From positions 1 through 20,185 of the IMG/VR virus record IMGVR_UViG_3300005594_000041: DNA of 20,185 bases, one strand, 5' to 3'. Each line of letters opens with the position of its first letter. Positions within the stretch are counted from its first letter, which is position 1. Position numbers and translations under genes: made by a program. Of the stretch, positions 2,878-18,428 are shown one piece after another. The notes under the pieces were generated by a model. It was not told where the DNA came from and made no database searches. It was given only the letters and a program-made list of their open reading frames with translations. Origin of the DNA: a virus.

Positions 2878-3702
2878 GTGAGCAAGCAACCCTTCGCCGA
2901 GAACGACTTTCTCATCACCGATCCGGAGAAGCATCCGGGTGTCGTCTTCGAGGTGCCGGCAGGCGTGAGGCCGCTTCGTTTGGAGCCCATCGGCTATCGC
3001 GCCGACACCGAGGTTAGGTGCGCCTTCTGCCGGAACCGGCAGCGCCATGTCTACGGGTTCTTCGCTGTCCTACCTGATGGTAGTCTCGCCCTGTGTGGAA
3101 ACTGCTGCGCGGTCGAGATCTCGGACAAGTCGACCGTCGCGAAGATCAAGCAGGACGTGAAGCGTCGCGAGATCACCAGCCAGAACATGGTCGTCATCCG
3201 CGAGCTCACCCGGGGGCTGCCGGAAGTCTTGGAAGTTCTCGAGCGAGACTTCCTTCCGATCGAGGCTCAGGTCAATTCAATCGCCGAGAAGCTGGAGTGG
3301 CTGTTCCCCTCGAGCCGCGGAACATGGAAGACGTCGAAGAAGCTGGGTCTCGCGCGCGGCGGCCTGGTCAGCGTTCTGAAAATCACCGGCAGACTCGATG
3401 AGCGCGGCGTCGAAAGCGTCCTCGAAAAGCGGCGGAGGATCTTCACCGCGCTCCATGAGGGGCTTCAGGAACTCGAGGCTGCGGCGAAGGCTCTCCGCCC
3501 TGGTCCGGTGAAGCACACCGTCTGCAACCTGGCGCGGCGCGACGGCTATGAACAGGTCACCATAAGGGGCGCCGAGGTTGTCGTAGGTGGCTGGATACCG
3601 GACCCGGACGACGACGAGATGGAAATCTTCAGCGAGCAGGCCGTGCCGTTGCCCCCATTGCAGGTGCCGGATACGGGGGAGCTGTTGGAGTTGATGAAGT
3701 AG
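2878..3702 (+). CDS. Zinc-ribbon protein of unknown function, 274 aa
   Basis: I do not recognise a named family. A four-cysteine zinc ribbon is visible: C48-x2-C51 (CAFC) and C73-x2-C76 (CGNC), separated by 21 residues, in a segment that reads like a small treble-clef or ribbon fold. The middle (about 95-220) is probably helical and rich in charged residues. The C-terminus is acidic (DPDDDEMEIF) and ends LPPLQVPDTGELLELMK. Translation starts with GTG at 2878, preceded by TTAGGT. The gene is upstream of and co-directional with the EcoRV-type methylase, 75 bases away, so the two could be co-transcribed. A link to restriction-modification is only suggested by position. Confidence 0.65.
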   Translation: MSKQPFAENDFLITDPEKHPGVVFEVPAGVRPLRLEPIGYRADTEVRCAFCRNRQRHVYGFFAVLPDGSLALCGNCCAVEISDKSTVAKIKQDVKRREITSQNMVVIRELTRGLPEVLEVLERDFLPIEAQVNSIAEKLEWLFPSSRGTWKTSKKLGLARGGLVSVLKITGRLDERGVESVLEKRRRIFTALHEGLQELEAAAKALRPGPVKHTVCNLARRDGYEQVTIRGAEVVVGGWIPDPDDDEMEIFSEQAVPLPPLQVPDTGELLELMK

Positions 3703-3777
3703 GCAGACAACCCCTTATTTAGTTGTTCGATGCGGCTGGTCTGCTATTGGTGGAGACTAACCCATCAGGAGAATCCT

Positions 3778-4713
3778 TTGACCTTCCTTCCCCGAACCAT
3801 TCGACCAAAGGCGCCTCCGATCAAGACACAAGGCATCAAGACTAAGGTCGTGCCGCTGATCGCGCGCTCGATCGTGTGGGAAGGCTCTGGACGTTGGATC
3901 GAGCCTTTCCTGGGCTCCGGGGTGGTGGCGCTGAACATCGCTCCTCAGCGGGCTCTGCTGGCCGACAACAACGAGCACATGATCGAACTTTACCGTGGCA
4001 TCCAGAACGGCACTATAAATGGCCACACGATGCGCGAGTATCTCGTCCGCGAGGGTTCAGCACTGCTTGATCAAGGCGAGCAGCACTACTACTTCATCCG
4101 CGATCGATTTAATGCCGAGGGCAACCCCTTCGACTTCGTTTTCCTGAGCCGGTCCTGCTTTAATGGCATGATGCGGTTCAATAGGAAGGGCGGCTTCAAT
4201 GTCCCGTTCTGCCGGAAGCCGGAACGCTTCCGTCCAGCACTTGTCACAAAGATTGTGAATCAGGTCGAATGGGCATCGACAGCTATGGCCGGAAAGGACT
4301 GGAAATTTGTTGCCCAGGACTGGAAGGAAACCGTTGGTCAGGCTCAGGCCGGCGACATGATCTATGCTGATCCGCCCTACGTCGGACGGCACACTGATTA
4401 CTACAACGGTTTCACGGATCAGGATTCCGACGACCTCGCCGAGATGCTGATCTCGTCTCCAGCCGATTTTGCGATGTCGAACTGGCTGGAGAACAAGTAT
4501 CGCCGGAATGAGTATGTCGACCGTTGGTTCGCGGATCATGCCCAGCGCACGATGTCTCACTTCTACCATGTCGGGCCGACCGAGAGCCTCAGGAACGAGA
4601 TGACCGAGGTGGTAATCTTGTCCCCGAGAGCTGCGGCGCCGGTGGTCGAGGAGGAAGCGGCGAAGCCGTCAGTTCTGCCCCTGTTTGAGGCGGCGGAAGC
4701 CGTCAATGTTTGA
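3778..4713 (+). CDS. DNA adenine N6-methyltransferase, M.EcoRV type (D12 class)
   Basis: It transfers a methyl group from S-adenosylmethionine to N6 of adenine in DNA, protecting the host from the paired nuclease. The predicted target is GATATC, by analogy with M.EcoRV. Motif I (SAM binding) is EPFLGSG and catalytic motif IV is DPPY (within YADPPYVG). The N-terminal APPIKTQGIKTKVV and the central SCFNGMMRFNRKGGFNVPF are typical of the Dam/EcoRV alpha group. The start chosen is TTG at 3778, with AGGAG 6 bases upstream, giving 311 aa and an N-terminus that begins close to the family's first motif. An in-frame ATG at 3730 would add 16 residues but has no ribosome-binding site. The 3' end overlaps the convergent endonuclease gene by 45 bases. 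Confidence 0.92.
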   Translation: MTFLPRTIRPKAPPIKTQGIKTKVVPLIARSIVWEGSGRWIEPFLGSGVVALNIAPQRALLADNNEHMIELYRGIQNGTINGHTMREYLVREGSALLDQGEQHYYFIRDRFNAEGNPFDFVFLSRSCFNGMMRFNRKGGFNVPFCRKPERFRPALVTKIVNQVEWASTAMAGKDWKFVAQDWKETVGQAQAGDMIYADPPYVGRHTDYYNGFTDQDSDDLAEMLISSPADFAMSNWLENKYRRNEYVDRWFADHAQRTMSHFYHVGPTESLRNEMTEVVILSPRAAAPVVEEEAAKPSVLPLFEAAEAVNV

Positions 4714-5406
4714 GAAATCGGTGCGATCGCTTTTTGTCCGTCCGTAGGACCTCCAGTATTCGAGAAATTCCTCTTCTGATTCGAATGGGCCTCGGCCCTC
4801 TTCGAAGTCTTCGAGGGTGCCGTTGATGCTGCCGATATTGGTCGTGTTTCCACTACCGGCACGATCACTCGAGATGCGCCATTTCTCCTGAACGAATACA
4901 TCGACGTTTTCGAAGGGAAGTGGAATATCCAGAAGATCGCTAATTGAGTAGCTATGTTCGGCACCGGCCTTCTTTTCAGCTACCCGATTGTAGATGAACC
5001 CGATCACCCAGTGCTCGGAATACTCGTCGAAGGGGAACACGATGTTCTTCCGACCCGTGCCGCGCATGAAACTGGTATAACCGCCAAGGGTGTAGTTGAA
5101 CTTGGCATCGTCCCGCAGTCGGTAGGTCGTCTTGACGTCGAGGGCGATTTTTCCATTCTCGCCCAAACCCTTGTGTAGGGTGAAATCGGGATAGTGGTTC
5201 TGCACAGTGGGCTCGACGACCTCATAGCCCATAGTCTTCGCAGCCGCATAAACGGCCGGTCGGCTTACGAGTTCGAAAATCGTGCTGAGAACTTTCGTAT
5301 CTGCTCCGAGTGGATAAACCGTGCCTGCTTGATCGACAATTCCACACACTTTGTAGCTATCGACAAGCTTGTCGAGTTCAGCTTGCAGCGTTTTTCTGAA
5401 GTCCAT
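4669..5406 (-). CDS. Type II restriction endonuclease, EcoRV homologue, 245 aa
   Basis: It is predicted to cut GATATC bluntly as a homodimer. From memory of the R.EcoRV sequence, similarity runs along the whole chain: CGIVDQAGTVYPLGADTKV, QNHYPDFTL, KIALDVKTTY, TLGGYTSF and AGSGNTTNIGS all have close counterparts. The catalytic residues D74, D90 and K92 fall at the same numbers as in R.EcoRV. The base-contacting recognition loop is present as G184-S-G-N187-T188-T. The length of 245 aa equals that of R.EcoRV. The ATG at 5406 is preceded by GAGAGGA at good spacing; the frame is open further upstream, but that part has no similarity or start signal. The gene looks less GC-rich than its neighbours, which suggests transfer. 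No controller (C) protein gene lies next to it. Confidence 0.95.
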   Translation of the reverse strand: MDFRKTLQAELDKLVDSYKVCGIVDQAGTVYPLGADTKVLSTIFELVSRPAVYAAAKTMGYEVVEPTVQNHYPDFTLHKGLGENGKIALDVKTTYRLRDDAKFNYTLGGYTSFMRGTGRKNIVFPFDEYSEHWVIGFIYNRVAEKKAGAEHSYSISDLLDIPLPFENVDVFVQEKWRISSDRAGSGNTTNIGSINGTLEDFEEGRGPFESEEEFLEYWRSYGRTKSDRTDFSNIDGFRRLKQGQN

Positions 5407-5520
5407 TCTATCCTCTCGTTTTTGCGGCACCGTAGCTGCACCGGGTAACCGGGTCGAGTCCGGCCCGTGACCTGCACCAGAGTTTTTTGTTGAACTCGAA
5501 GGTGCCCGAACCTCCCGACA

Positions 5521-5549
5521 TTTCCGCCAAGCTCCCCTGGGACCTACCT
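5521..5549 (+). promoter_or_regulatory. Weak candidate promoter for the sigma-factor gene
   Basis: The 5407-5586 gap separates the divergent endonuclease and sigma genes. It holds CTACCT at 5544-5549, followed by CC as in the promoter at 838-866. At the -35 position of the shared class it has only TTTCCG (5521-5526) in place of TTTTGG. The spacing is the same, but the match is partial. The gap also has the direct repeat CTGCACC. No clear promoter was seen for the endonuclease on the minus strand. Confidence 0.25.
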
Positions 5550-5586
5550 CCTGTGAAGAACAAAAAACGAACAGGGCAGGCCCGAC

Positions 5587-6414
5587 ATGAGCGAACAATT
5601 CCGGAGAGGTGAGGACCAAGCAGCCTGGGTGAAGGCGTGGATTGAGGATCGCGACGAGATCGCGTTCGAGCTGTTGGAGAACTCGGTCAGGACGCCGATC
5701 CTCATGGCGATTGCAAATGTCCGCCGGCAGGCGAAGGTTCTCGACCTTGAGATGCTCTGGCAGGAGGCGAGGGTCTGCCTCGTGAAATGTGCGGCCCGGT
5801 TCCGTCCTGAGGATGGAGTGCCGTTCGGCGCATACTACAAGGAGTCTGTCAGGCGGCATCTGGAGGCGGCAACTCTCGGAGCCGATACGCAGCTCTCGAT
5901 GAAGAAGTCGAACAAGGAGCGTGACATCCATCGCCGGGTGCGCGGGATTGTTGGAGCGGTCACGAAGGATGGTCGCAGTGTCGAGCTCGGCATCACGATC
6001 GCCGCGTGGATGCTTTGCATTGAGCGAGATCATGCTGCCGAAGCGCTTTCTTGCTACCAGGGCTTTAGCCTCTCTGCTCCCGTGTCAGAAGATGAAGGGG
6101 GCGAGTTCGGCGCTATCCAGATGGAGGCTCGCGACCCCCACGCAGTCGACCAGGTCGACCAGTCTCGCCTGCCCGCGATCATTGAAGAGATCATCGAGGA
6201 GGCATGCAAAGGCGACGATCGTGCAAGACATATCGTCCGTGAGCGCCACTGGGGTGAGGCCAATGATAGGCGGGAGCTCCGGTCATTTCAGTCCATTGCC
6301 GACGAGATGGGCATGACACGAGAGCGAGCTCGTCAGATCCATGCTGCCGCGATTGTGCGCATGGCATCTGCACTCAAGGCGCGGGGGCTGGGACTCGACG
6401 ACCTGGTGGGGTGA
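5587..6414 (+). CDS. Divergent sigma-70-family RNA polymerase sigma factor, 275 aa
   Basis: It is predicted to bind host core RNA polymerase and redirect it to plasmid promoters. A region-2-like segment spans about residues 34-97, with the signature DLEMLWQEARVCLVKCAARF followed by GVPFGAYYKESVRRHL; this parallels the core-binding and -10 recognition helices of RpoH-like factors. A region-4 helix-turn-helix sits at about 232-262 (SFQSIADEMGMTRERARQ), the -35-binding motif with the typical SRERxRQ pattern. Region 1 is absent and region 3 is weak or atypical. The length is near that of RpoH (about 300). The gene is divergent from the EcoRV-type nuclease, and its 3' end overlaps the convergent VRR-NUC gene by 41 bases. 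Phage and plasmid sigma factors of this kind usually time transcription; its targets here are unproven. Confidence 0.8.
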   Translation: MSEQFRRGEDQAAWVKAWIEDRDEIAFELLENSVRTPILMAIANVRRQAKVLDLEMLWQEARVCLVKCAARFRPEDGVPFGAYYKESVRRHLEAATLGADTQLSMKKSNKERDIHRRVRGIVGAVTKDGRSVELGITIAAWMLCIERDHAAEALSCYQGFSLSAPVSEDEGGEFGAIQMEARDPHAVDQVDQSRLPAIIEEIIEEACKGDDRARHIVRERHWGEANDRRELRSFQSIADEMGMTRERARQIHAAAIVRMASALKARGLGLDDLVG

Positions 6415-9932: not shown

Positions 9933-11225
9933 TCAACGCCCCCGATCTTCTCCTCCAAGACGCCCGACGAGATCGCGCATCTTATCGACGGCTCGTCCCG
10001 CTGACTGGATCAGTGGGTGGTCAGCCAAGCCGACCTTTCTTGCCGCCGCCCGGATGGTCTCTGCAAGCGGGAAGTAGGCCCGCATGACCTCGACCAGCCC
10101 CTCGCGCTTGCGGTCGACTTCGGCGCGCTCCTTCGCCACAGCGGCGCGCTCTTTCTCGACCTCGGCCCTCTTCTTCGCGATCTCCGCCTCCGCCTGCTTC
10201 ATGGCATCGGCCTCGGCCTTCCTGGCAAGCTCCTTCCGTCGCTCTGATGCCTTCGCATCCAGGTTTGCGCGACGGCGAGCCGCTTCGACATCCTGTTTCC
10301 GGCGACGCTTCTCCGCCTCGACATCCTTCTTCTTCCGCTCTTCTTCGGACGCCAGAACCTTGCCGGCGAATGCCTCCGCCGCCCGGCGCTTTCCTTCGAG
10401 CTTCGCCTGCTCGACCTGCGCGAGCTCGGCGGCTTGGAGATTTTCGGCGCGTTGCTGGCGGCGATAGAGCCAGGGCGGAACATGCTGCTTCTTCTCCGGC
10501 GGAACCTTGCCCGCAGCCTTCGCCTCCCGGCGCTTTTGCGCGGTATTGTCGCCGCGGTCGAGCCCCAGCGGCTTGAACCATTCCGCGACCGAAGTCTGCG
10601 CCTTCTCTGCGTTCCTGAAATGGAGCATGTCAGTGGGCTGGAGCATGCGCTGGCGTCCTTTGCCCTTCGTCTCTTTCTCATTCCAGCAGGCGTAGTAGGC
10701 GTGCAGGTGGGGAGTTTTTTCGTCCATTTCCCACACCATGAAAAGGCAGTGCTCGCGCGGGATTTCGGAGTCGAGATATGAGACTGCCAGCTCCTTGAAC
10801 TTGCGACAAATCACCGGGTCCCGGAAGTCGGCGCCCTCGAGTTCGGCAATATCCGCATCCGACAGGCCCGCCTTTCGGAAAAACTTCTCGTCGGCACTCA
10901 CGACGACAGAGCGGACGCCGCCGAGCTTCTGCGATGCCTTCCAGGGATCTTGGGGGCCAGCACGCTCGACCCTCTTCGCCGGGCCTGGGCGGCCAGCCTT
11001 GCGGAGGGCGAGCGCCTCGTTCTTCATGTTGAGAACGGACATCATCTCGACCTCGGCGATGAAGTCCTCGGCCCAAGTTGGACCGCCATGAATGACCTCG
11101 TTCTGGTTTTTCTTCGACGGATCGCAGTGGTCCAGATCTCCGAAGCTCCGCTCATGGTGCTTCTGAAAATAAATGAGCTGATCCGGCCTCCAGCCCTCCA
11201 TGTGATACGCTACTTTGAACGCCAT
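9933..11225 (-). CDS. MobV/Pre-like plasmid relaxase, 430 aa
   Basis: It is predicted to nick oriT and pilot the plasmid strand during mobilisation by a conjugative helper. Near the N-terminus, H23-x2-R26 followed by DHCDPSKKNQNEVI resembles MobV motifs I and II. FMVWEMDEKTPHLHAYY (about 162-178) matches the metal-binding HxDExxPHxH motif, except that the first His is Glu (E166). Residues about 240-400 are an extreme Lys/Glu/Ala/Arg-rich coiled coil, as in the C-terminal part of this family. The start at 11225 (MAFKVAYHME) has a strong GAGGGCAGGA upstream; an earlier in-frame ATG at 11264 lacks one and would start upstream of the CCTAATT element. No type IV secretion gene is seen, so the plasmid is probably mobilisable rather than self-transmissible. 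Confidence 0.8.
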   Translation of the reverse strand: MAFKVAYHMEGWRPDQLIYFQKHHERSFGDLDHCDPSKKNQNEVIHGGPTWAEDFIAEVEMMSVLNMKNEALALRKAGRPGPAKRVERAGPQDPWKASQKLGGVRSVVVSADEKFFRKAGLSDADIAELEGADFRDPVICRKFKELAVSYLDSEIPREHCLFMVWEMDEKTPHLHAYYACWNEKETKGKGRQRMLQPTDMLHFRNAEKAQTSVAEWFKPLGLDRGDNTAQKRREAKAAGKVPPEKKQHVPPWLYRRQQRAENLQAAELAQVEQAKLEGKRRAAEAFAGKVLASEEERKKKDVEAEKRRRKQDVEAARRRANLDAKASERRKELARKAEADAMKQAEAEIAKKRAEVEKERAAVAKERAEVDRKREGLVEVMRAYFPLAETIRAAARKVGLADHPLIQSAGRAVDKMRDLVGRLGGEDRGR

Positions 11226-11249
11226 TGTCCTGCCCTCTTTTTGAGAGGG

Positions 11250-11279
11250 AATTAGGCCCCGCATGCTGTTCTCGCGACC
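11250..11279 (-). promoter_or_regulatory. Half-matching element of the shared promoter class before the relaxase gene
   Basis: On the minus strand CCTAATTCC (from 11256 leftwards) repeats the -10-like half of the shared promoter, about 25 bases before the relaxase ATG. At the expected -35 position the sequence is GGTCGCG rather than TTTTGGG, so only one half is conserved. Confidence 0.35.
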
Positions 11280-12219: not shown

Positions 12220-13032
12220 ATGACCGAGCAGAAAACAGGCACTCAGATCGCGCGCGTGCCGGAACAAGAAACGCACCTTCCGGCTGATCCGATGATCATG
12301 CTGATCGAGAAGGTTGTGAAAGACCCAGAGGCCGACATTTCCAAACTCGAAAAGATGCTGGAGATGCGCGAGCGCATCGAGGATCGCGCCCGTGAAGATC
12401 GGGCTCGGCAAGCAGAGCGTGCATTCTTCGCGGCTCTCACCGCTGCACAGAATGAAGTGCCGCTGGTTGTTCGCACCCGGGCAAACACCTTCGCAAAATA
12501 CACCTACGCAGATCTCGCGGATATCGAGACGCAGGCGATGCCCGTTGTCCGACGCCATGGTTTTTCCGTATCCGCTTGGTCTGGTGCCGGCGCTGAGCGG
12601 GGCTATCAGCGAGTGTTCATGCGCGTCTCGCATGTCGATGGTCATAGCCACGAGATCCACGATGATTTCCCGCTCGATGGGGCAGGTGCGAAAGGGGCCT
12701 CCAACAAGACAGACATTCAGGCCAAGGGCAGCACTACCAGCTACGGCAGGCGCTACCTGCTCTGCGGATATTTCAGCATCGCGACCGCCGATGACGACGG
12801 CAGCCGGCGCCATGCCGAGCCCGCAGCAGCTGACACGATCTCGGCGAAAGACGCGGCCCGCGTGCGCGAGCTCATCGCCTCGACCGATACCGAAGAGGCC
12901 AAGTTCCTCGGCGTCGCCAAGTCCGAGAGCATCGAAGAAATTCCGGCGAAGGATGCAGCCCGTCTGATCGGAATGCTTGAACGCAAGTCGCGCGATCAGG
13001 CCAAGGTGGCGAAGGAGTCGGGCAATGCTTGA
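12220..13032 (+). CDS. ERF-family single-strand annealing protein, 270 aa
   Basis: A RecT/Red-beta-type recombinase of the ERF superfamily that anneals complementary single strands during phage or plasmid recombination. The charged N-terminal helix (EKMLEMRERIEDRAREDRA) leads to the family signature region AERAFFAALTAAQNEV, then ANTFAKYTYADLADIE (about 88-103) and the core DIQAKGSTTSYGRRYLL, with a basic C-terminus. The ATG at 12220 has AGGGA upstream; a TTG at 12202 would add six residues. It overlaps the YqaJ gene by 8 bases, and the pair form a two-component annealase-exonuclease system. The gene holds the one GATATC site I noticed (12520-12525). Confidence 0.88.
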   Translation: MTEQKTGTQIARVPEQETHLPADPMIMLIEKVVKDPEADISKLEKMLEMRERIEDRAREDRARQAERAFFAALTAAQNEVPLVVRTRANTFAKYTYADLADIETQAMPVVRRHGFSVSAWSGAGAERGYQRVFMRVSHVDGHSHEIHDDFPLDGAGAKGASNKTDIQAKGSTTSYGRRYLLCGYFSIATADDDGSRRHAEPAAADTISAKDAARVRELIASTDTEEAKFLGVAKSESIEEIPAKDAARLIGMLERKSRDQAKVAKESGNA

Positions 13033-16536: not shown

Positions 16537-16640
16537 TGCGTGCATGCGTGCGCAAGTGCGTAACTGCGTGCGCGCGTATCTACGCAGCTGCGTAGGAGCG
16601 TAGGTGCGTGCGTATGTGCGCGAGTGCGTGCTTGACTGCG
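16537..16640. other. Candidate partition centromere (TGCG tetramer-box array)
   Basis: Twelve copies of TGCG start at 16537, 16545, 16549, 16557, 16565, 16569, 16589, 16605, 16609, 16617, 16625 and 16637. Every one lies in the same 4-bp register, often 8 bp apart (box plus 4-bp spacer). The palindrome CTACGCAGCTGCGTAG (16580-16595) sits in the middle. The array lies directly upstream of parA and its ribbon-helix-helix partner. The layout matches the tetramer-box centromeres of ParF/ParG systems, although the box sequence differs. Confidence 0.7.
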
Positions 16641-16666
16641 TGATCGGAACCGGCGAGATTGCCGGC

Positions 16667-17278
16667 ATGAAAACGCTTGTTGTAGCGGCACAGAAGGGCG
16701 GCGCCGGAAAGACCGCCCTCAGCAGGAACCTGGCAGCCGTTGCCGCCGAGGACGGGCAGCGCGTGCTGCTCATCGACCTCGACCCGCAAGGCACCACCAG
16801 GAGATGGCTCGAACGACGCCAGGCTGATGAGCCCACGATGCTCGACGCCGACCCGGAGCCGGGGGAGATCCCCGGCGTCCTGGCTCGGCTGAATGGGCAT
16901 TTTGACCTGGTTGTTATAGACACCCCTCCCACAGTTCCGGCGTGGATGTCAGATGTCATGGGCTCTTCTGATCTCGTTCTCATTCCCGCGCGAGCAAGCA
17001 CTGACGACCTCGACGCCATCGGCGCAACGATCGGAGCCGCGAGTAGGGCAGGGGCCTCGATCGCCTTCGTGATGACCATGATCAACCCGAGGGCAGCCCT
17101 CACAGATGCTGTCGCCAGGGCGCTCGCCCAGCATGGGCGGGTCGCGCCCGTGAATATCCACTCGCGGGTGGTGTATGCTGAGATAGGCGGCAGCGGAGAA
17201 AGCGTTGTTGAAGCAAGAGATCCGAAGGCGCTTGAGGAGATGAAACGCCTGTGGGGTTATGTCCAGGAGGTCATGTGA
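16667..17278 (+). CDS. parA: ParA-type partition ATPase, 203 aa
   Basis: A Walker-type partition ATPase that moves or positions the plasmid copies with its DNA-bound partner. The deviant Walker A is KGGAGKT (residues 10-16). LLIDLDPQGTTRRW gives the A' motif and LVVIDTPPT the Walker B. There is no N-terminal DNA-binding domain, and the length of 203 aa places it in the small Ib (ParF-like) group. The start at 16667 is chosen because the protein then begins MKTLVVAAQKGG, as in relatives; the longer frame would translate the repeat array. The spacing to the array suggests autoregulation through it. The stop overlaps the next start as TGATG. Confidence 0.93.
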   Translation: MKTLVVAAQKGGAGKTALSRNLAAVAAEDGQRVLLIDLDPQGTTRRWLERRQADEPTMLDADPEPGEIPGVLARLNGHFDLVVIDTPPTVPAWMSDVMGSSDLVLIPARASTDDLDAIGATIGAASRAGASIAFVMTMINPRAALTDAVARALAQHGRVAPVNIHSRVVYAEIGGSGESVVEARDPKALEEMKRLWGYVQEVM

Positions 17279-17574
17279 TGGCGAAGAGTTTCAGCCTGGA
17301 TGGGTTGGTCAATCCCGATGCCAAGGTTCCCGATCAGAAAGGGCAGGGGGCTTCGACTCACGCAAAGCCGAAGGCGGCACCGAAAGCAAAACCGAAGCCG
17401 GCACCCGCGCCGATGGCGCCGAGCAAGCGTCTGAGCCTGGTGCTCGATGGCGAGACCTACCAAGCCCTACGCCGTCTGTCTTTCGAGAGCGGCCGGACAC
17501 ACCAAGACATTCTCGATGAGGCTGCGCGTGCGTATCTACGCAAGCACGCATCTACGCAGGATGCGAGCGAGTGA
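17278..17574 (+). CDS. Ribbon-helix-helix partition partner of ParA (ParG-like), 98 aa
   Basis: It probably binds the TGCG-box centromere and stimulates the ATPase. The N-terminal half is flexible and rich in lysine, proline and alanine (KPKAAPKAKPKPAPAPM), as in the mobile tails of ParG and Omega-type proteins. Residues 50-92 form the ribbon-helix-helix: RLSLVLDGETYQALRRLSFESG, then RTHQDILDEAARAYLRKH. The ATG at 17278 overlaps the parA stop, with AGGAGG upstream. The 3' end of the gene itself carries more TGCG/CGCA boxes. It ends in a GTGA overlap with the replication initiator, so the three genes form one coupled operon. Confidence 0.85.
   Translation: MAKSFSLDGLVNPDAKVPDQKGQGASTHAKPKAAPKAKPKPAPAPMAPSKRLSLVLDGETYQALRRLSFESGRTHQDILDEAARAYLRKHASTQDASE
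17529..17558. repeat. Extra TGCG/CGCA boxes inside the ParG-like gene
   Basis: TGCGTATCTACGCA (17529-17542) is a perfect inverted repeat around TC, and ACGCATCTACGCA follows at 17546-17558. CGCA boxes start at 17539, 17547 and 17555, exactly 8 bp apart. The word CGTATCTACGCA also occurs in the centromere (16575-16586). They lie 13-42 bases before the initiator GTG. Confidence 0.55.
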
Positions 17575-18428
17575 GCACTGCAAAGGAGCAGCTCGATTTG
17601 TTCGTGGCGCTCGTCGGTGATGTGCCGCTGCGCGATGACAAGGAGATGATGTCAGCCCCCATGGTGTCGATAGCCAAGCGCGGTCAGCGCCGCATCGAAT
17701 GGGAGGGGCCGAGCGGGCAACAGGTCGTGATCACTTCGACAGAGGGCGACGACATTGCCACGATTTGGGATTTCGACTTGGTGATTTGGGCCATTTCGCA
17801 ACTTAATGCTGCGGTTGAGAGAGGCGAGACCCCGGCGCAGACGATCTCATTTCGGCCGTATGACTTGATGAAGAGCATCCGGTGGTGCGACAGTATGGGT
17901 AGGGTAGGGGGTCGGGAGTATGAGCGGTTCAAATCCGCGATGAACCGCCTGAGGGCAACCCGCATCCGAACGACAATCCGTCGCCACGACCGGAAAGATA
18001 GGCACGAAGATTTCAACCTGGTGTCGGATTTCACACTCGATGAAGTCAAGGATGCCGAGGGCAACGCCAGGCCGCTCGGCGCTCAGATGACCATCCCGAC
18101 ATGGATCTATCGTGCAGTGACCGGCAGCCGCAAAGAGGTTCTGAGCATCACGCCGCTCTACTTCGACCTCACATCGGGGCTCGACCGGTTCTTGTATCGA
18201 CTGGCACGGCGCCATGCCGGAAACGGCCTCGACAACTCTGACGGATGGGCGTTCAGTTTCCGCGACCTGCACCGGCGCTCGGGCTCTCAGATGAGGTATG
18301 CAGATTTTGCGAAGGCTCTACGCAAGGCCATCGCCGCGGAGAAAATCCCTACCTACGAGCTGGTTGAGGAGCGCGGCGCGAACGGCGATCCGCTGCTACG
18401 CATGCGCTACCGCAAGCTGCTTCTGTGA
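17571..18428 (+). CDS. repA: Plasmid replication initiator, RPA family (RepA), 285 aa
   Basis: It is predicted to bind the iterons downstream and open the plasmid origin. The family pattern includes MEFP-like N-terminal APMVSIAKRGQRRIEW, then ATIWDFDLVIWAISQL (about 63-78), RPYDLMKSIRW, YERFKSAMNRLRATRI, ITPLYFDLTSGLDRFLYRLAR (about 188-208) and RRSGSQMRYADFAKALRK, the winged-helix-type DNA-binding parts of RPA proteins. Length is normal for the family (about 280-300). The GTG at 17571 overlaps the preceding stop as GTGA and has no good ribosome-binding site, so translation is coupled to the partition gene. Iterons begin 3 bases after the stop. Confidence 0.9.
   Translation: MSTAKEQLDLFVALVGDVPLRDDKEMMSAPMVSIAKRGQRRIEWEGPSGQQVVITSTEGDDIATIWDFDLVIWAISQLNAAVERGETPAQTISFRPYDLMKSIRWCDSMGRVGGREYERFKSAMNRLRATRIRTTIRRHDRKDRHEDFNLVSDFTLDEVKDAEGNARPLGAQMTIPTWIYRAVTGSRKEVLSITPLYFDLTSGLDRFLYRLARRHAGNGLDNSDGWAFSFRDLHRRSGSQMRYADFAKALRKAIAAEKIPTYELVEERGANGDPLLRMRYRKLLL

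Follow-up and report, generated by a model that had tools for sequence, protein, structure and literature searches.

The closest described relative of the restriction-modification (R-M) system studied here is EcoRV of pLG13, in which the endonuclease (R) and methylase (M) genes are divergent and linked to a controller (C) gene (PMC5333194); a preliminary description of the present locus had named this arrangement, and examination of the EcoRV locus bore it out. Convergent R and M genes are known from AhdI and Esp1396I, the textbook examples (PMC5333194), which share this order with the present pair but are C-controlled and encode unrelated enzymes. EcoRI and Eco29kI resemble the present pair in their C-independent control, but their genes are tandem, with mapped reverse promoters and regulation by antisense RNA (PMC3874152). 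How controller-free R-M systems protect a new host in time and yet restrict invaders is not well understood.

In this study, we analyzed an R-M locus in a viral DNA stretch of 20,185 nucleotides (hereafter the window), which is the whole IMG/VR record IMGVR_UViG_3300005594_000041 (Table 1). We propose, with a probability of roughly 0.6, that the locus is an intact C-less EcoRV-type pair directed at GATATC and carried as cargo by a phage-plasmid of Rhodobacterales, in which the tail of M, encoded in the overlap with R, binds the sliding clamp and lets M re-methylate new DNA.

Table 1. Features of the R-M locus and its carrier in the window.
Feature	Position	Strand	Basis or remark
274-aa protein directly upstream of M	2878-3702	plus	no family match
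Shine-Dalgarno sequence AGGAG, six bases 5′ of the M TTG	3767..3771	plus	sequence
M, D12-class adenine methylase, 311 aa, TTG start	3778..4713	plus	open frame and family matches
Convergent 3′ overlap of R and M, 45 bp	4669..4713	both	M and R codons in exact antisense register
VLPLF, M residues 299-303, candidate beta-clamp-binding motif	4672..4686	plus	inside the overlap; MutS comparison
R, EcoRV-type restriction endonuclease, 245 aa	4669..5406	minus	ATG at 5406, stop at 4669
Intergenic region of 180 bp separating R from the divergent sigma-like gene	5407..5586		not conserved in relatives
Shine-Dalgarno-like AGAGGA preceding the R ATG	5411..5416	minus	sequence
Sigma-70-like factor, neighbor only	5587..6414	plus	family matches; not linked in relatives
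ParA-type partition ATPase	16604..17278	plus	family match
RepA (RPA family), plasmid replication initiator	17571..18428	plus	family match and plasmid comparison

Identity of the endonuclease and the methylase

The frame of R is intact, and its product matched the Pfam family Endonuc-EcoRV (PF09233) with an E-value of 1e-51 and the solved R.EcoRV (1eo3) in phmmer with an E-value of 4.5e-81, at ~53% identity over residues 16-239. The alignment with R.EcoRV revealed identical residues at T37, K38, E45, Q69, N70, H71, D74, D90, K92, T93, and T94, as well as in the loop 182-188 (EcoRV numbering) and at R221 and T222. Among the 26 catalytic or DNA-contact positions checked, the sole difference was a conservative replacement of F105 by Y. 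The residues D74, D90, and K92 carry the same numbers as in R.EcoRV, and the GSGNTTN loop is present and intact at residues 184-190 instead of 182-188, so that the EcoRV-type assignment made in the preliminary description holds. Since the contact residues match those of R.EcoRV, GATATC is the likely target site of the system.

The methylase matched MethyltransfD12 (PF02086; E 1e-33) and scored over the cut-off of TIGR00571 (Dam family). It contains a DPPY motif, aligned along its length with its nearest kin, the M proteins of EcoRV-type pairs, and is 45-48% identical to M.EcoRV of pLG13, in agreement with its earlier placement as an EcoRV-like D12-class enzyme. There is an in-frame ATG upstream at 3730; the TTG was taken as the start of M because of the AGGAG in front of it and because the protein alignment of the relatives begins there. 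This TTG start, already proposed from the sequence alone, is conserved in the four closest relatives (L001, Rhodovulum; L002, Thioclava; L003, a proteobacterial MAG; L004, Hyphomonas jannaschiana), where an equivalent Shine-Dalgarno sequence precedes it in L001-L003 and a weaker one in L004. For the 274-aa protein encoded next to M, neither Pfam nor PHROG gave a match, and other viral contigs contained no relative. The GC contents of R (52%) and M (57%) are lower than the 61% of the 41-kb parent contig, which is consistent with recent acquisition of the pair.

Gene order and the convergent overlap

The two genes lie tail to tail with the 45-base overlap reported earlier, and the stop codon of M is opposite a serine codon of R. 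The preliminary description regarded such a layout as unusual. EcoRV-type loci were drawn from GTDB contigs, IMG/VR, plasmids, phages, and whole genomes, and the ~30 non-redundant pairs with both genes close together comprised 13 convergent, 11 tandem R>M, 4 divergent, and 2 tandem M>R arrangements, in a sample that is centered on relatives of the window and whose proportions are not population estimates. The convergent order, the commonest of all, is thus not exceptional among the EcoRV-type pairs sampled and is shared at least by the branch of the window; prevalence of this order among EcoRV homologues was an outcome that the preliminary description had named as speaking against its reading, and for that branch, at least, it holds. 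Sequence comparison places the R/M pair in the EcoRV family as a new member, with a layout common to its relatives, and it differs from EcoRV itself in being convergent, overlapping, and C-less.

The four closest relatives are 74-78% identical to the window in R and 74-80% in M. Like the window, they show a convergent in-register overlap (45, 39, 33, and 39 bp in L001 to L004), with the same serine codon opposite the M stop, no C gene, a TTG start of M, and an LPLF tail. Unlike the window, they are located on bacterial genome contigs in unrelated contexts, neither beside the phage's genes nor adjoining a sigma gene. The system of H. jannaschiana is presumably HjaI, an EcoRV isoschizomer. In L007, a Rhodospirillaceae MAG, reading of the frames indicates that M overlaps the 3′ end of R by ~30 bp, again in that register, bringing the alphaproteobacterial relatives with an in-register overlap to five. 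Stops or frame shifts interrupt the R frame of L007 while its M is intact, which points to a decayed nuclease or an assembly error. In other related convergent systems, the two genes are separated by 10-361 bp or a C gene is present. The alphaproteobacterial branch is controller-free, with the R and M ends overlapping tail to tail.

A search using a profile built from five EcoRV-type C proteins detected no C gene in either the window or the whole 41-kb parent contig, as the preliminary description had stated for the system. The same search found a C gene in L005, L012, L013, L014, L016, and L017, and none in L001-L004, L006-L008, L015, or L018. When the 300 bp preceding each of the two genes were compared among five loci, no pair of loci was clearly above shuffles (lowest rank 2 of 100, for L002/L003 on the R side). 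The absence of shared sequence upstream of either gene indicates that little more than the two coding regions with their ribosome sites makes up the transferable unit.

The C-terminal tail of the methylase

The tail peptide of M is AKPSVLPLFEAAEAVNV, and the last 14 residues of the protein, SVLPLFEAAEAVNV, are the part encoded opposite R. The canonical beta-clamp-binding motif is Q-phi-x-[LM]-[FL], and a Gln at the first position strengthens known clamp motifs (PMC11139829). The VLPLF of the window has no such Gln, and neither does 849DLPLF853 near the C-terminus of Caulobacter MutS, which is needed for clamp-dependent replisome localization (PMC8034640); VLPLF fits this MutS variant. In the genomes carrying L001-L004, MutS contains DLPLF, DLPLF, DLPLF, and TLPLF, respectively. 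The likeness of M to the MutS of Caulobacter and Rhodobacterales lies in this xLPLF near the C-terminus, a candidate clamp-binding motif in M; MutS is a mismatch-repair protein, and the short motif alone is held in common. In an AlphaFold prediction, M residues 293-311 are disordered (pLDDT <50) on a confident, well-folded enzyme.

The LPLF sequence does not vary among the window, L001-L004, and L007, and its codons differ among the window and L001-L004 (L, CTG/TTG/CTA/TTA; P, CCC/CCG; L, CTG/CTT/CTA; F, TTT/TTC). None of the ~7 nucleotide changes over these four codons alters M, and most are missense or stop in R; with independent events counted by eye, the chance that all would be synonymous is ~5e-4. 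In L003, the LPL codons lie beyond the end of R and nonetheless encode LPL. More distant EcoRV-type M proteins carry Q-type motifs at the C-terminus or at most ~10 residues from it, including QMALF (L012), QMSLF (L014), QLTLL (L005), QLQLI (L034, L067), QMMLL (L047), QLMLL (L070), QLTLPI (L073), and QLQIPL (L081). Such a motif occurred within the last 30 residues of 12 of 50 non-redundant M proteins, whereas 2000 shuffles gave 1.6 on average and 8 at most, and it was present in none of 33 R tails, although the patterns were written after the tails had been seen and the statistics, being partly post hoc, are supportive only. Since the motif also occurs in non-overlapping or divergent systems (L014, L034, L005), it is not a by-product of antisense coding. 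Among 25 other alphaproteobacterial D12 methylases, three contained it, all of them members of a single look-alike group with QxSLxL ends. A group of alphaproteobacterial D12 methylases (L145, L146, and L147) ends exactly in QASLAL, QVSLPL, or QASLSL, and these tails suggest that the clamp-like trait may extend beyond EcoRV-type systems.

The open-access papers searched contain no report of a clamp-binding motif in an R-M methylase. From these comparisons, the new element of the locus is the clamp-like M tail that the overlap encodes, and the probable phage-plasmid carrier comes second.

The tail could instead be a functionless loose extension of M in an ordinary C-less EcoRV-type pair, in which the overlap is mere compaction and timing follows from promoter and start-codon strengths only. 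Such pairs are common in our sample, both tandem and convergent, the TTG and ATG starts are each preceded by a Shine-Dalgarno sequence, and a recognizable motif is missing in M.EcoRV and more than half of the relatives. Nevertheless, the invariance of LPLF under synonymous codon drift, its use by MutS of the same hosts, and the excess over shuffles among distant relatives all argue against a functionless tail, and we consider this explanation rather doubtful.

According to the clamp-tethering explanation, M would be held at the beta sliding clamp through the xLPLF of its disordered tail and would re-methylate GATATC on new DNA soon after replication. A low level of M from the weak TTG start would then suffice to keep replicating self DNA protected, and incoming DNA, not yet replicated, would stay open to cutting by R. 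The conserved TTG is consistent with the low M levels that tethering would permit.

Control of expression

The preliminary description had suggested that expression order is set, for example, by antisense collision, by the TTG start of M, or by the neighboring sigma factor. If no terminator separates the genes, convergent transcripts would run together, and early transcription of M could dampen R through collision or duplex RNA. The overlap is conserved in the clade and contains no terminator-like site, the relatives have no conserved upstream regulatory DNA, and EcoRI and Eco29kI provide a precedent. On the other side, the gapped or C-controlled convergent relatives indicate that an overlap is not a general requirement, and its conservation tracks the codons of M and not a nucleotide signal. 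As the main explanation, antisense control seems unlikely to us; collision at the overlap may possibly act alongside clamp tethering. Scans for consensus promoters near the genes and for terminators gave counts equal to those in shuffles.

Because the sigma-like gene is divergent from R, its product might drive R, which would then be made only after the phage or plasmid genes were established; any R promoter outside the sigma gene must lie in the 180-bp intergenic region. In the flanks of the relatives, where the R/M pair stands in unrelated contexts, no sigma gene of this kind was detected, and no related sigma was found in known phage records or other viral contigs, so we hold this route to be very improbable. 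GATATC occurs once in the window, at 12520, with no site near the R/M genes, and eight times in the contig, where 5.9-8.6 sites are expected; avoidance of GATATC and self-site control were accordingly rejected. Neither the R nor the M control region contains a recognition site for control by promoter methylation. With the sigma gene unlinked and GATATC absent near the genes, both routes to the timing of expression are disfavored, and control by a C protein or by methylation of promoter sites is excluded or unsupported here.

The carrier element

An IMG/VR contig of 40,977 bases contains the window in reverse orientation, at positions 4072-24256 and with 100% identity. This parent contig encodes small and large terminase, portal, head protease, major head protein, neck and tail proteins, tape measure, tail fiber, and amidase, together with an Erf-like annealing protein, a RecE-like exonuclease, SSB, helicases, ParA, and an RPA-family RepA that is 76% identical to those of plasmids of Paracoccus marcusii and Roseivivax marinus. 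No integrase was detected among the contig ORFs searched (a part of all ORFs), and the contig ends carry no repeats. The structural and packaging genes, which are those of a tailed phage, combined with RepA and ParA make the carrier a probable phage-plasmid of Rhodobacterales. In the viral collections, the flanking genes matched only the parent contig and no annotated relative of the whole phage. A weak Mob_Pre match under the Pfam cut-off (window 9933-11264, minus strand) may represent a mobilization relaxase. The plasmid with the closest RepA, P. marcusii pMARC5 (L036), carries a DISARM defense system, which suggests that this replicon type may often carry defense cargo.

The phage-plasmid P1 carries the type III system EcoP1I and is likewise a phage with plasmid replication and partition that bears an R-M system. 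The present carrier differs from P1 in its type II EcoRV-type system, its HK97-type structural genes, and its replicon. EcoRV-like nucleases were also seen in other viruses. Thirteen IMG/VR contigs (L094-L106) encode a shorter form of 197 aa with no EcoRV-type methylase in the flanks fetched, possibly a solitary viral nuclease family, and similar lone genes occur in a 517-kb contig (L011) and in halovirus HGTV-1 (L019).

That the pair is inactive, or only a plasmid-addiction module, is hardly credible: type II systems do stabilize plasmids and the carrier is plasmid-like, but both frames are intact with all catalytic residues present, and addiction needs activity and is compatible with clamp tethering.

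Implications

Clamp tethering of M may represent a wider principle, namely that EcoRV-type, and perhaps other mobile-element, adenine methylases with C-terminal clamp peptides couple self-marking to replication, the peptide in this case being overprinted at the nuclease gene's end; we regard the odds of this generalization as even. The proposed logic resembles the coupling of DNMT1 to PCNA, in which a methylase is likewise tethered to the replication clamp (PMC9690074), although DNMT1 is a eukaryotic cytosine methylase unrelated to M. If the proposal is true, a clamp-tethered methylase would tell replicating self DNA from incoming DNA, in parallel with DNMT1/PCNA, and would offer a C-independent means of keeping the methylase low and protection complete. 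On its probable phage-plasmid carrier, the R-M system would naturally serve in superinfection exclusion and in stabilizing the plasmid.
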